In this document: positions 38,143 to 61,137 of the stretch, piece by piece
Layout of the letters: each line of letters begins with the position of its first letter
Numbering within the stretch: the stretch's first letter is position 1
From: Shinella zoogloeoides
GTDB taxonomy: Bacteria; Pseudomonadota; Alphaproteobacteria; Rhizobiales; Rhizobiaceae
Assembly (NCBI RefSeq): GCF_020883495.1
Contig: NZ_CP086610.1
Span: 3,427,001-3,491,000, forward strand
Direction of reading: 5' to 3'
DNA: 64,000 nt
The notes under the pieces: generated by a model
The model's database searches: none
What the model was told of the DNA's origin: nothing
Seen by the model: the letters and a program-made list of their open reading frames with translations, nothing else
Made by a program: the position numbers and the translations under genes

Positions 38143-38232
38143 TGGCGGAGAGGGTGGGATTCGAACCCACGATACCCTTGCAGGTATGCCGCATTTCGAG
38201 TGCGGTGCATTCGACCACTCTGCCACCTCTCC
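38143..38232 (-). tRNA. tRNA-Ser (CGA)
   Basis: The minus strand from 38232 begins GGAGAGGTGGCAGAGTGG and ends CCTCTCCGCCA at 38143, including an encoded CCA. The anticodon stem CCGCA/TGCGG closes a loop CTCGAAA with anticodon CGA, which reads the UCG serine codon. A long variable arm gives the 90-base length of class II tRNAs. Confidence 0.97.
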
Positions 38233-57728: not shown

Positions 57729-59618
57729 TCAATCCATGGTGTGGATGTCGCGGTCCTTCGTTTCCGGCAGGAAGAGAATGCCGATGACGAGGGTGAGGCC
57801 CGCGAAGGCGATCGGATACCAGAGGCCGAAGTAGATATCGCCCCAGGCCGTGTTCATCGCGAGAGCCGCTGCCGGCAGCAGGCCGCCGAACCAGCCGTTG
57901 CCGATATGGTAGGGCAGCGACATGCCGGTGTAGCGGATGCGGGTCGGGAACAGCTCCACCAGAAGGGCGGCGATCGGGCCGTAGACCATCGTGACATAGA
58001 TCACGAGTACGGTCAGGACGGCGATGATCTTGACCCAGTTCACGTTGGCGGGGTCGGCGACCATGGTGAAGGCACCGGCGGCCGGGATCGTGTAGACGGC
58101 CATGTCGGCGGCGCTGCCGACTTCCTCGGCCGTCAGCAGCTTGCCGGAGACGAGGTCGGCTGCCGTCACGGTCGTTTTCTCGCCGGCGCGGATGGCGGCG
58201 GCATCGAGCTTCAGTTCCGGGTTGGCGGCAACGAAGGCGTCGAGCTTGCTGTCCGGAACCTTGGCGGCACCGCGGACCAGCGGATAGCCGCTGTCGTGAA
58301 GCGCAATGTTGATGCCCTTCTTCAAAGCCGCATCGAGTGCCTTCGCCTGATCCGCCGAGGCAATGGCGTCGTAGCTCGTAATGGTCTCGTCGCCGATCTT
58401 GACCGTCGCCGCCGTGCCGGGAGCCGCCGTGGTGACGACATCGTAGGGCACGGAGCTGCGGGTCAGGAAGTCGGTCGCGATATCGCACGAGGTGGTGAAC
58501 TTCGCCGTGCCCGTCGGATTGAACTGGAACTTGCAGTCGCCCGGAGCGACCGTCACGGTCGCGCGGGATGTCTGCTGTGCCAGTGCCAGCGCCGGATTGC
58601 CGGCCCAGGTCAGCGCCTTGAACAGCGGGAAGTAGGTGAGTATGGCGAGCAGCAGGCCGGCCATGATGATCGGCTTGCGGCCGATCTTGTCCGACAGCCA
58701 GCCGAAGAAGACGAAGAAGCCGGTGCCCAGGATCAGCGAGGCGGCGACCATCAGGTTCGCAGACTGGCTGTCGACCTTCAGCACGCCCGTCAGGAAGAAC
58801 AGCGCGTAGAACTGGCCGGAATACCAGACGACGGCCTGGCCGACGACGGCGCCGAACAGCGCGAGCAGCGCGATCTTGGCGTTGCGCCACTGGCCGAAGG
58901 CTTCCGTCAGCGGGGCCTTGGAACCCTTGCCCTCTTCCTTCATTTTCGCGAAGGCGGGGGATTCATGCATCTTCATGCGGATCCAGACGGAGACGCCGAG
59001 AAGCACGACCGAGACGAGGAAGGGAATGCGCCAGCCCCATTCCGCGAAAGCTTCCTTGCCGACGATGAACTGCACCACGAGAATGACCACGAGCGACAGG
59101 AACAGGCCAAGCGTCGCCGTCGTCTGGATCCAGGAGGTGAAGTAGCCGCGCTTTCCATCCGGCGCGTGCTCGGCGACATAGGTTGCCGCACCGCCATATT
59201 CACCGCCCAGCGCAAGGCCCTGCAGCATGCGCAGCGCGATCAGGATGATGGGAGCTGCGATACCGATGGTGGCCGCACCCGGCAGCAGGCCGACGACGAA
59301 GGTCGAGAAGCCCATGATCAGGATGGTGACGAGGAAGGTGTATTTGCGGCCGACGAGGTCGCCGAGGCGGCCGAAGACCAGCGCACCGAACGGGCGCACC
59401 AGGAAGCCGGCGGCAAACGCGAGCAGCGCGAAGATATTGCGCGTCGTTTCCGGATACTGGCTGAAGAAGGTGGCGCCGATATAGATCGCCAGCGAACCGT
59501 AAAGATAGAAATCGTACCACTCGAAGACGGTGCCGAGCGATGAGGCGAAAATCACCTTCTTCTGCTCGCCCGTCATGGGCGCCGACTTGGCTTTGCCCAC
59601 GGTCGAAACATTTGCCAT
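57729..59618 (-). CDS. MFS transporter (metabolite:H+ symporter type) with large periplasmic insert
   Basis: The 629-residue transporter from ATG 59618 begins MANVSTVGKAKSAPM. It has MHS-type motifs: LGTVFEWYDFYLYGSLA in TM1, GRLGDLVGRKYTF in loop 2-3, RMLQGLALGGEYGGA, and GWLSDKIGRKPII. After TM8, at about residues 355-535, is a polar insert of some 180 residues that would be exposed in the periplasm, with Cys residues (GDCKFQF, TSCDIAT). Most relatives are about 430 residues. Substrate unknown. GGAGG precedes the ATG. Confidence 0.9.
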   Translation of the reverse strand: MANVSTVGKAKSAPMTGEQKKVIFASSLGTVFEWYDFYLYGSLAIYIGATFFSQYPETTRNIFALLAFAAGFLVRPFGALVFGRLGDLVGRKYTFLVTILIMGFSTFVVGLLPGAATIGIAAPIILIALRMLQGLALGGEYGGAATYVAEHAPDGKRGYFTSWIQTTATLGLFLSLVVILVVQFIVGKEAFAEWGWRIPFLVSVVLLGVSVWIRMKMHESPAFAKMKEEGKGSKAPLTEAFGQWRNAKIALLALFGAVVGQAVVWYSGQFYALFFLTGVLKVDSQSANLMVAASLILGTGFFVFFGWLSDKIGRKPIIMAGLLLAILTYFPLFKALTWAGNPALALAQQTSRATVTVAPGDCKFQFNPTGTAKFTTSCDIATDFLTRSSVPYDVVTTAAPGTAATVKIGDETITSYDAIASADQAKALDAALKKGINIALHDSGYPLVRGAAKVPDSKLDAFVAANPELKLDAAAIRAGEKTTVTAADLVSGKLLTAEEVGSAADMAVYTIPAAGAFTMVADPANVNWVKIIAVLTVLVIYVTMVYGPIAALLVELFPTRIRYTGMSLPYHIGNGWFGGLLPAAALAMNTAWGDIYFGLWYPIAFAGLTLVIGILFLPETKDRDIHTMD

Positions 59619-59870
59619 TCCATTGTCCTCCACGAAAACGGCGTCAGGGGGGCAACCCGTATGCGGCCCGGTGTTTCTCCCAAAAACGCCGAGCAGGGTG
59701 CGCCTTGATGGAAGGATGGCAGAAAACGCCGGGCCGCATCAGCGCTGCTTTGGGCTTATGACTTTGGATGTACGACTTAAGTCGCGGGCGGCCCCAGACG
59801 GCCGATCCGTCACGCAAGGCTTGACTCTTCGGCAGATGAGCGTATTCACGTCGCACGCAAAGGAACCGCC

Positions 59871-59990
59871 ATGTACCGCTTTGGACAGTCCATCGCCCGC
59901 ATGATCGCTCCGGCCTTCAACGCCGGACGGGTCCGCTATTGCGTATCGATTTCCAAAACAACGGCCAAAACGACGACGAAAACCGTCTGA
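59871..59990 (+). CDS. Candidate leader peptide upstream of asd
   Basis: A 39-codon frame begins ATG 59871 (MYRFGQSIARMIAPAFNA) after AAAGGA and ends with codons for SISKTTAKTTTKTV before TGA at 59988. Six of the last 14 codons are Thr and three are Lys, with one Ile: end products of the pathway that begins with asd. Two hairpins follow before asd. This is the classic arrangement of transcription attenuation: ribosome stalling at scarce Thr or Lys would change the RNA folding. The role is inference; the sequence features are direct. Confidence 0.7.
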   Translation: MYRFGQSIARMIAPAFNAGRVRYCVSISKTTAKTTTKTV

Positions 59991-60011
59991 CGTCTCTGGC
60001 CCACCGCTCTC

Positions 60012-60060
60012 TCCCCGGTATGGCCGGGGACCGAAACCCGCGTCATGGCCGGCGGGTTTC
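60012..60060 (+). promoter_or_regulatory. Two hairpins of the asd leader (candidate attenuator)
   Basis: TCCCCGG/CCGGGGA (60012-60018, 60024-60030) and GAAACCCGC/GCGGGTTTC (60033-60041, 60052-60060) lie between the Thr/Lys-rich frame and asd. The second stem ends in TTTC and could act as a weak terminator. The repeated ATGGCCGG makes an alternative pairing of the CCCCGG strand with CCGGCGGG possible, though I could not define an exclusive antiterminator. Confidence 0.55.
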
Positions 60061-60102
60061 CCCTCCTGACCCGCGGAGAGACAGAGAAAGAGAGCTTTAG
60101 TC

Positions 60103-61137
60103 ATGGGTTTCAAGATCGCAGTCGCCGGCGCGACCGGCAATGTCGGCCGCGAAATGCTGAACATCCTCGTTGAACGCGGCTTCCCGGCCGACGAAGTCGT
60201 CGCGCTGGCATCCAGCCGGTCGCAGGGCGTCGAAGTCTCCTTCGGCGACCGGACGCTGAAGGTGCAGAACCTCGAGAACTACGATTTCTCCGACACGGAC
60301 ATCTGCCTGATGTCGGCCGGCGGCACCGTCTCGCAGAAGTATTCGCCGAAGATCGGCGCGCAGGGCTGCGTCGTCATCGACAATTCCTCGGCCTGGCGCT
60401 ACGACGCCGACGTTCCGCTGATCGTTCCGGAAGTGAACCCGGATGCTATTGCCCAGTTCACCCGCAAGAACATCATCGCCAACCCGAATTGCTCGACCGC
60501 CCAGCTCGTCGTCGCGCTGAAGCCGCTGCATGACCGCGCCACCATCAAGCGCGTGGTCGTGTCGACCTACCAGTCCGTTTCCGGCGCCGGCAAGGACGGC
60601 ATGGACGAACTCTTCAACCAGACCCGCGCCGTCTTCGTCGCCGATCCGGTCGAATCGAAAAAGTTCACCAAGCGCATCGCCTTCAACGTCATCCCGCACA
60701 TCGACAGCTTCATGGAAGACGGCTACACGAAGGAAGAGTGGAAGGTTCTCGCCGAGACCAAGAAGATGCTCGACCCGAAGATCAAGGTGACCTGCACGGC
60801 CGTGCGCGTCCCGGTCTTCATCGGCCATTCCGAATCGGTCAACATCGAGTTCGAGAAGGAAATCACCGCCGACGAGGCGCGCGATATCCTGCGCGAGGCT
60901 CCGGGTTGCCAGGTCATCGACAAGCACGAGAACGGCGGCTACATCACCCCCTACGAATCGGCCGGTGAGGACGCCACCTACATCTCGCGCATCCGCGAGG
61001 ACGCAACGGTCGAGAACGGCCTCAACATGTGGGTCGTTTCCGACAACCTCCGCAAGGGCGCGGCCCTCAACGCCATCCAGATCGCGGAACTGCTCGTCGC
61101 CCGCGGCCTGATCAAGGCGAAGAAGCAGGCAGCCTGA
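60103..61137 (+). CDS. asd: Aspartate-semialdehyde dehydrogenase
   Basis: The 344-residue enzyme reduces aspartyl phosphate to aspartate semialdehyde, the branch point to lysine, diaminopimelate, threonine, methionine and isoleucine. It has IAVAGATGNVGREML for NADPH, catalytic Cys in NPNCSTAQLV, and RVPVFIGHSESVNIEFEKEI. An essential cell-wall precursor depends on it. A candidate attenuator leader precedes it, and a hairpin follows. Confidence 0.97.
   Translation: MGFKIAVAGATGNVGREMLNILVERGFPADEVVALASSRSQGVEVSFGDRTLKVQNLENYDFSDTDICLMSAGGTVSQKYSPKIGAQGCVVIDNSSAWRYDADVPLIVPEVNPDAIAQFTRKNIIANPNCSTAQLVVALKPLHDRATIKRVVVSTYQSVSGAGKDGMDELFNQTRAVFVADPVESKKFTKRIAFNVIPHIDSFMEDGYTKEEWKVLAETKKMLDPKIKVTCTAVRVPVFIGHSESVNIEFEKEITADEARDILREAPGCQVIDKHENGGYITPYESAGEDATYISRIREDATVENGLNMWVVSDNLRKGAALNAIQIAELLVARGLIKAKKQAA

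Follow-up and report, generated by a model that had tools for sequence, protein, structure and literature searches.

In gammaproteobacteria, the thrABC genes are preceded by thrL, a transcription attenuator in which a leader rich in codons for the end products is followed by mutually exclusive RNA helices. The product of aspartate-semialdehyde dehydrogenase, encoded by asd, is the point where the routes to lysine, threonine, methionine, isoleucine and the diaminopimelate of the cell wall part. Here we describe the region upstream of asd in a 64,000-nucleotide stretch of DNA from Shinella zoogloeoides, the whole of which is called the window below. This region resembles thrL in its leader, which is rich in end-product codons, and in RNA helices that are predicted to be mutually exclusive. 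Unlike thrL, it precedes asd and not thrABC, its codons are those of Thr and Lys rather than of Thr and Ile, no terminator-like site was found in the window or in most of the representative sequences, and its helices involve sequence around the start of the gene.

In the same bacterial family, an amino acid gene is likewise described as controlled through a leader peptide, trpL of Sinorhizobium meliloti (PMC7298713). According to the passages on it in that source, trpL uses a transcription terminator and yields the small RNA rnTrpL (PMC7298713), whereas no terminator was seen at asd. The nearest architectural parallel is the LEU element before leuA in Actinobacteria, which, in the part of the source that presents it, combines a putative leader peptide, carrying codons for the end product, with a pseudoknot or other alternative fold that involves the Shine-Dalgarno box (PMC1262725). 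The LEU element differs in amino acid and gene (Leu and leuA) and in phylum, and there the partner of the Shine-Dalgarno box is the codon run itself (PMC1262725), whereas the switch proposed here is the region after the leader stop codon.

Translation of the small protein SEP5 of S. meliloti has been reported from Ribo-seq and Western blotting (Hadjeras et al. 2023, PMC10117765). The passages on SEP5 place it in the 5' UTR of an 'aspartate dehydrogenase' gene, with six Thr and three Lys codons near its 3' end, suggest that it is a possible leader peptide and report it as conserved in Sinorhizobium only (PMC10117765). From this description, SEP5 is very likely the orthologous leader in S. meliloti. 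The same passages present no RNA structure, mechanism or wider survey, whereas the element described here was followed across the order and includes a two-state RNA with covarying helices. The translated leader frame itself is very likely known from SEP5, and what is new is the order-wide spread and the RNA switch, by which SEP5 is widened from a genus-level small protein to an order-wide element. A first-pass annotation of the window noted no described asd leader in rhizobia. This has to be amended for the peptide, very likely the one proposed as a possible leader in 2023, and stands for the RNA switch and its spread. No other asd leader mechanism was found in the literature searched, which covered few subscription journals, and an earlier mention is possible. 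In the sections consulted, a 2005 survey of alphaproteobacterial RNA motifs gives five elements, with the word asd absent (PMC1273637), and a Caulobacter map mentions leader attenuation for ilv, with the word threonine absent (PMC4117421).

Results

A Thr/Lys-rich leader frame precedes asd

The downstream gene encodes a typical aspartate-semialdehyde dehydrogenase, with bit scores of 470.2 against TIGR01296 (cut-off 324.2) and 529.5 against NF011456 (cut-off 223). Among the named asd proteins matched, the nearest, at 98% identity, is that of S. zoogloeoides. The enzyme had been called the first branch-point enzyme, and it does make the first branch-point compound; in the pathway, as is generally known, it is the second enzyme, after aspartokinase. 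The 39-codon frame with a ribosome site that had been noticed upstream is present at the positions in Table 1, and our recount confirmed six Thr and three Lys codons among its last 14. The leader stop codon lies 112 bases before the asd start. No promoter-like site above threshold was obtained in a sigma-70 scan for the TTGACT/TATTCA candidate (59821-59848). The leader peptide matches no known family among the NCBI protein families, and its tail pattern has a single occurrence in the genome of the window. The 400 nt upstream of the frame with a homoserine dehydrogenase domain in this genome showed no Thr-rich leader.

Table 1. Positions of the leader, RNA regions, helices and asd in the window
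Feature	Position	Strand	Remarks
Possible promoter, TTGACT and TATTCA	59821-59826 and 59843-59848	+	16-nt spacer; by eye, low confidence
AAGGAA, Shine-Dalgarno-like, leader frame	59860-59865	+	5 nt before leader ATG
Leader ORF	59871-59990	+	39 codons plus TGA; product MYRFGQSIARMIAPAFNAGRVRYCVSISKTTAKTTTKTV (39 aa)
Codon run, putatively regulatory	59946-59987	+	last 14 codons: 6 Thr, 3 Lys
Region 2 (GTCTCTGGCC)	59992-60001	+	directly after leader stop; partner of region 4
Inner stem ACCG:CGGT of the 2:4 state	60003-60019	+	region 3 in 9-nt loop; from truncated/constrained folding
Region 3 (GCTCTCT then CCCCGGT)	60006-60019	+	pairs with region 4; 5' part pairs with asd ribosome-site region
Region 4 (GGCCGGGGAC)	60022-60031	+	common partner of regions 2 and 3
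Helix 2:4	59992-60001 with 60022-60031	+
Helix 3:4, alternative to 2:4	60012-60019 with 60023-60030	+
Middle hairpin GAAACCCGC...GCGGGTTTC	60033-60060	+	sequence varies between species; without U-run here
Region 5 (GGAGAGA)	60075-60081	+	5' of asd ribosome site; complements region 3; register differs between clades
AGAGAGC, probable asd Shine-Dalgarno region	60089-60095	+	partner of GCTCTCT (60006-60012) with region 2 masked
asd, aspartate-semialdehyde dehydrogenase	60103-61137	+	344 aa; NCBIfam TIGR01296, NF011456

In the non-redundant set (228 sequences that passed the leader/length filter, reduced to 131 representatives by removal of near-duplicates), the last 16 leader codons were 37.7% Thr, 17.5% Lys, 3.7% Ile and 2.1% Met. 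These percentages are inflated by the choice of leader frames according to their Thr/Lys score, a choice that was applied equally to the reversed and shuffled controls. Thr made up 4.9% of the preceding in-frame leader codons and at most 2.4% of the codons in the two other frames of the representatives. Thr is dominant in the run, and Lys is second.

The leader is conserved beyond the family

For comparison, asd upstream regions were collected from the best 80 of a larger number of named loci and from searches of the order, the family and the class, in which asd was found in 156 of 160, 195 of 199 and 165 of 190 genomes, respectively. The order-level sample comprised 109 of 155 other genomes (39 of 52 families), chosen in order of decreasing similarity and therefore leaning to closer relatives. 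The family search contributed 88 loci and the class search 27 of its 162 matched genomes outside the order, and the collection came to 307 loci. The window's family (f1) was taken as Rhizobiaceae in the wide sense and the order as Hyphomicrobiales, both from the named loci. Leaders were scored as the number of Thr codons plus 0.5 for each Lys codon in the last 16 codons, with a cut-off of 6 and a looser one of 5, and two loci, one unplaceable (L122) and one too short to score (L088), were entered as misses.

At a score of at least 6, leaders were found in 213 of 305 asd upstream regions and in none of 305 reverse complements or 305 shuffled sequences. At the looser cut-off, the counts were 229, 1 and 2, respectively. 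In the window's family, 145 of 169 loci (named plus family-level, near-identical loci included) had a Thr/Lys-rich leader at the stricter cut-off and 158 at score 5. At the order level, 65 of 109 loci were positive at the stricter cut-off (four of them from the window's family), covering 25 of the 39 families examined. Outside the order, 2 of 27 loci (L286 and L287) were positive. No positive locus was found among those examined in families including f2, f7, f18, f34, f35 and f50. The comparison of asd upstream regions across relatives, of the kind that had been suggested as a check, found the Thr/Lys run conserved well beyond the window's family. The leader frame at 59871-59990 is real and widely conserved.

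All of the best 80 named loci had an upstream ORF in which at least 8 of 12 codons in one stretch were for Thr, Lys, Ile or Met. The usual ending of the leader among these Rhizobiaceae loci was AKTTTKTV; the N-terminus was variable and the tail strongly conserved. Codons other than the commonest set were used in 20 of 112 KTTTKTV tails, a synonymous change. Between families, the Thr/Lys content was kept while the peptide sequence changed, which argues for codon sensing rather than for a conserved peptide product. The core motif was found in 26 of 151 family genomes, in one copy each (none with the reversed pattern as a control), and by coordinates it started 93-106 nt before asd in all 26.

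Mutually exclusive helices lie between the leader and asd

The 233-nt region from the leader to asd folded at -88.2 kcal/mol (z -2.1), and 7 of 200 shuffled sequences were as stable or more so, which is by itself a modest signal. Two stem-loops had been reported before asd. They are present, as part of a set of mutually exclusive helices. Downstream of the codon run, region 4 is common to helices 2:4 and 3:4, each of which covaries in the comparisons below, 3:4 in the column counts only. When truncated transcripts were folded, region 2 was paired with region 4 and region 3 was looped out in 28 of the 34 sequences shown, from many families (judged by eye). The other six (L231, L249, L093, L099, L118 and L142) lacked 2:4 in spite of a free region 2. 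When the first bases after the leader stop were removed, 3:4 formed instead in most of the sequences shown. The pairing of AGAGAGC with GCTCTCT appeared in the minimum-energy fold without region 2 and also in the full fold. Formation of the 3:4 hairpin does not preclude the 5' part of 3:5 in the window's family, so that 3:4 would be part of a closed state. Region 5 often lies 15-40 nt from the asd start codon.

Covariation was assessed by partner swaps in the 131 representatives. The native 2:4 pair was better than swapped ones in 90% (p about 1e-20) and the native 3:5 pair in 63-65% (p 4e-5 to 3e-6), and two control pairings gave p values of 0.05-0.21. The result was similar by clade, with p values for the window's family and for the other families of 3.5e-14 and 2.3e-6 for 2:4, and of 2.6e-4 and 0.003 for 3:5; one control pairing reached 0.036 in the other families. 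For direct pairing of region 2 with region 5, partner swap detected no covariation (p 0.53-0.84 in the 131 representatives, 0.91 in the window's family and 0.38 in the other families). A sequestering 2:5 helix as a general OFF state was rejected on this lack of covariation (p 0.38-0.91). In two loci of one family (L087 and L091), region 2 could pair with region 5 over 9-10 bp, with a G-C/A-U difference seen by eye, and this is a possible lineage-specific closing helix.

Column counts were made on an alignment of 69 of the 78 representatives from the window's family. The 14 column pairs of 2:4 were 85.8% paired (36-61% when slid), with 41 double-change cells against 19.2 in shuffles. The eight pairs of 3:4 were 94.5% paired (38-72% when slid), with 24 such cells against 10.3. 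For both helices, the percentage paired, the double-change cells and the covariation score were each reached by none of 500 column shuffles, which related sequences can beat without any structure. The covariation score was highest at zero slide for both, and the double-change cells of 2:4 were slightly higher at a slide of +2 (47 against 41). Pairs with double changes (36 of 500 shuffles for 2:4, 76 for 3:4) and further pair types (132 and 293 of 500) were not clearly above the shuffles. The seven column pairs of 3':5, in the pairing of region 3 with region 5, were 85.1% paired and fitted better, at 87.7%, with a slide of two columns, because the register differs between subgroups, and it is uncertain. 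Comparison between species shows helices 2:4 and 3:4 to covary, with weaker support for 3:5, and it establishes the conserved coding run and its position ahead of asd.

Folding energies and access to the asd start

The energies, access values and pair counts below are from nested folding, which ignores pseudoknots, and native sequences were compared with shuffles where folding gave both alternatives, which was the case for 130 of 131 native and 228 of 262 shuffled sequences. The mean energy was -24.3 kcal/mol for 2:4 in truncated transcripts and -18.3 kcal/mol for 3:4 with region 2 masked, compared with -17.3 and -11.7 kcal/mol in shuffles, so both helices were stronger than in the shuffles (p 8e-24 and 1e-20). 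At full length, the 3:4 state was favoured in 75% of the native sequences (median 3.0 kcal/mol) versus 50% of the shuffles.

Access to the Shine-Dalgarno region fell from 0.66 in the 2:4 state to 0.53 in the 3:4 state, by 0.133 compared with 0.021 in shuffles (p 6e-7). The access of region 5 dropped by 0.093 in native sequences, and shuffles showed a small but detectable drop of 0.022 (p 3e-5). The Shine-Dalgarno window was less open in the 3:4 state in the window's family; outside it, access was the same with 2:4 forced (0.63) and with region 2 masked (0.64), and only region 5 changed. In the window itself, the two states were nearly equal (-47.2 and -46.9), and region 5 was more open with region 2 masked (0.74 vs 0.60).

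The region-3 zone formed a mean of 8.8 pairs with the region-5/Shine-Dalgarno zone when region 2 was masked and 7.4 when nothing was masked; its pairing near zero in the 2:4 state follows from ignoring pseudoknots. The 7.4 pairs suggest that the closed fold is also the resting fold at equilibrium, so that 2:4 would have to be kinetically trapped during transcription. Equilibrium folding of 24 sequences with a ribosome at eight positions gave no consistent trend for the Shine-Dalgarno region, and therefore the trapped states were compared instead.

Discussion

A probable translational attenuator at asd

The reading that we favour, as somewhat probable, is attenuation through a leader peptide: charged tRNA-Thr, and probably tRNA-Lys, would be sensed, and the step mainly controlled would be the initiation of asd translation. 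A ribosome covers roughly 12 nt ahead of its A site. Because most Thr codons lie more than about 12 nt upstream of region 2, a leader ribosome stalled in the codon run, when Thr or Lys is short, would leave region 2 free to pair with region 4 once this has been made. The 2:4 helix would trap region 3 in the hairpin loop, leaving the asd start open and asd expressed. When both amino acids are plentiful, the ribosome would reach the leader stop, where it covers most of region 2, and the terminating ribosome would hide this region. Region 3 would then be engaged both with region 4 and with either region 5 or the Shine-Dalgarno region, which would lower asd translation. The stalling, the direction of the ON and OFF states, and the placing of control at translation and not at termination are what we infer from the arrangement of these elements. 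The distribution, codon use, covariation and folding energies speak for this reading. Against it weigh the ribosome-position folding that showed no trend, the six sequences lacking 2:4, the closed fold at rest, the near-equal states in the window with its more open region 5 on masking, the unchanged Shine-Dalgarno access outside the window's family, the uncertain register at region 5 and the distance of this region from the start codon.

Attenuation had been put forward for this leader on the model of thrABC. The Thr/Lys leader, the alternative covarying hairpins and their conservation beyond the family agree with attenuation in general, and termination of the thrABC type is not supported. The terminator scan of the window gave no terminator-like site on the plus strand, and the middle hairpin was not scored as a terminator, so an intrinsic terminator in the window was rejected. 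Among the 131 representatives, 16 had a hairpin followed by a T-rich stretch, by a lax test only, and 13 of the 16 were family-level loci (L226-L277). In 106 of 131, no T run between the leader stop and asd was longer than three.

Transcription attenuation or Rho-dependent termination could nevertheless work through the same leader, the middle hairpin or Rho ending the transcript when threonine is plentiful and 2:4 preventing this. The trpE(G) precedent in S. meliloti (PMC7298713) and the 16 representatives just mentioned speak for termination, and the pyrimidine-rich stretch after the leader stop, with regions 2 and 3 rich in C and U, could serve for Rho loading. Against it stand the terminator scan, the short T runs, and the covarying partners of region 3, which lie outside the middle hairpin, in region 4 and close to the asd ribosome site. 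Because the alternative pairings reach toward the ribosome-binding region of asd, control of the translation start fits better, and we hold termination to be unlikely as the general mechanism. In several loci of the window's family (L226, L234, L240, L241, L248-L252, L270 and L277), the middle hairpin mostly reads CCCGC...GCGGG and has a T-rich stretch after it, with six T in L270. In this L226-L277 subgroup, the hairpin may be a real terminator, and termination may contribute there. A recurrent GGCC in the loop of the subgroup's middle hairpin is a possible partner for the GGCC of region 2.

The switch might also be wired in the opposite direction. The 2:4 loop would then present region 3 for a pseudoknot with region 5 that blocks asd, 3:4 would be the open state, and a ribosome stalled at the last codons would cover region 2 and open asd, in the manner of the antibiotic-inducible erm and cat leaders. 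Such wiring would make use of the looped region 3 found in the 2:4 state across many families and of the covariation of 3:5; 2:4 is the more stable early fold, and the last Thr is the second-last leader codon in 94 of 131 representatives. On the other hand, 3:4 would not free region 5, since it can coexist with the 5' part of 3:5 in the window's family, nested folding (pseudoknots ignored) gives a less open start in the 3:4 state, and most Thr codons are too far upstream for a stalled ribosome, with the footprint given above, to cover region 2. This arrangement therefore appears improbable to us.

That the peptide acts in trans as a small protein, with the RNA structures secondary, is favoured by the precedent of peTrpL in the same family (PMC7298713) and by the strongly conserved tail of the named Rhizobiaceae loci, but it is very improbable, since between families the Thr/Lys content and not the sequence is kept, the N-terminus varies, and the core motif and the tail pattern were found only before asd.

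A riboswitch or T-box was rejected, as the leader region had no Rfam 15 match at the gathering score; the best sub-threshold hit reached 11.8 bits versus the 95.9 required and was on the minus strand. The sole Rfam match in the window at the gathering score was a tRNA gene (38146-38232, minus strand).

Returning to the translational attenuator, we propose more tentatively, as a conjecture that we hold plausible and short of probable, that the asd leaders form an order-wide class, perhaps extending beyond the order, of Thr and Lys attenuators without a terminator, gated by folding or by a pseudoknot, with a hairpin loop antisense to the gene start. If true, a conserved sensor at asd would be how a large order that includes nitrogen-fixing symbionts sets the flow through the aspartate pathway, and it would provide an example, found widely, of amino-acid attenuation at the level of translation and not of transcription.

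Several minor observations were made along with these analyses. The divergent neighbour of the leader (57729-59633, minus strand) looks, from its translation by eye, like an MFS transporter with a long insert between membrane segments. In two loci from genomes of the class outside the order (L286 and L287), Thr-rich leaders precede asd as well. A compact form, in which only about 80 nt separate the leader stop from asd, was seen in L088, L219, L225, L246, L255 and L276; these leaders often end in Ile as well as Thr, and compensatory changes were noted by eye in their 2:4 helix, CCGCCCC:GGGGCGG versus CCACCCC:GGGGUGG.
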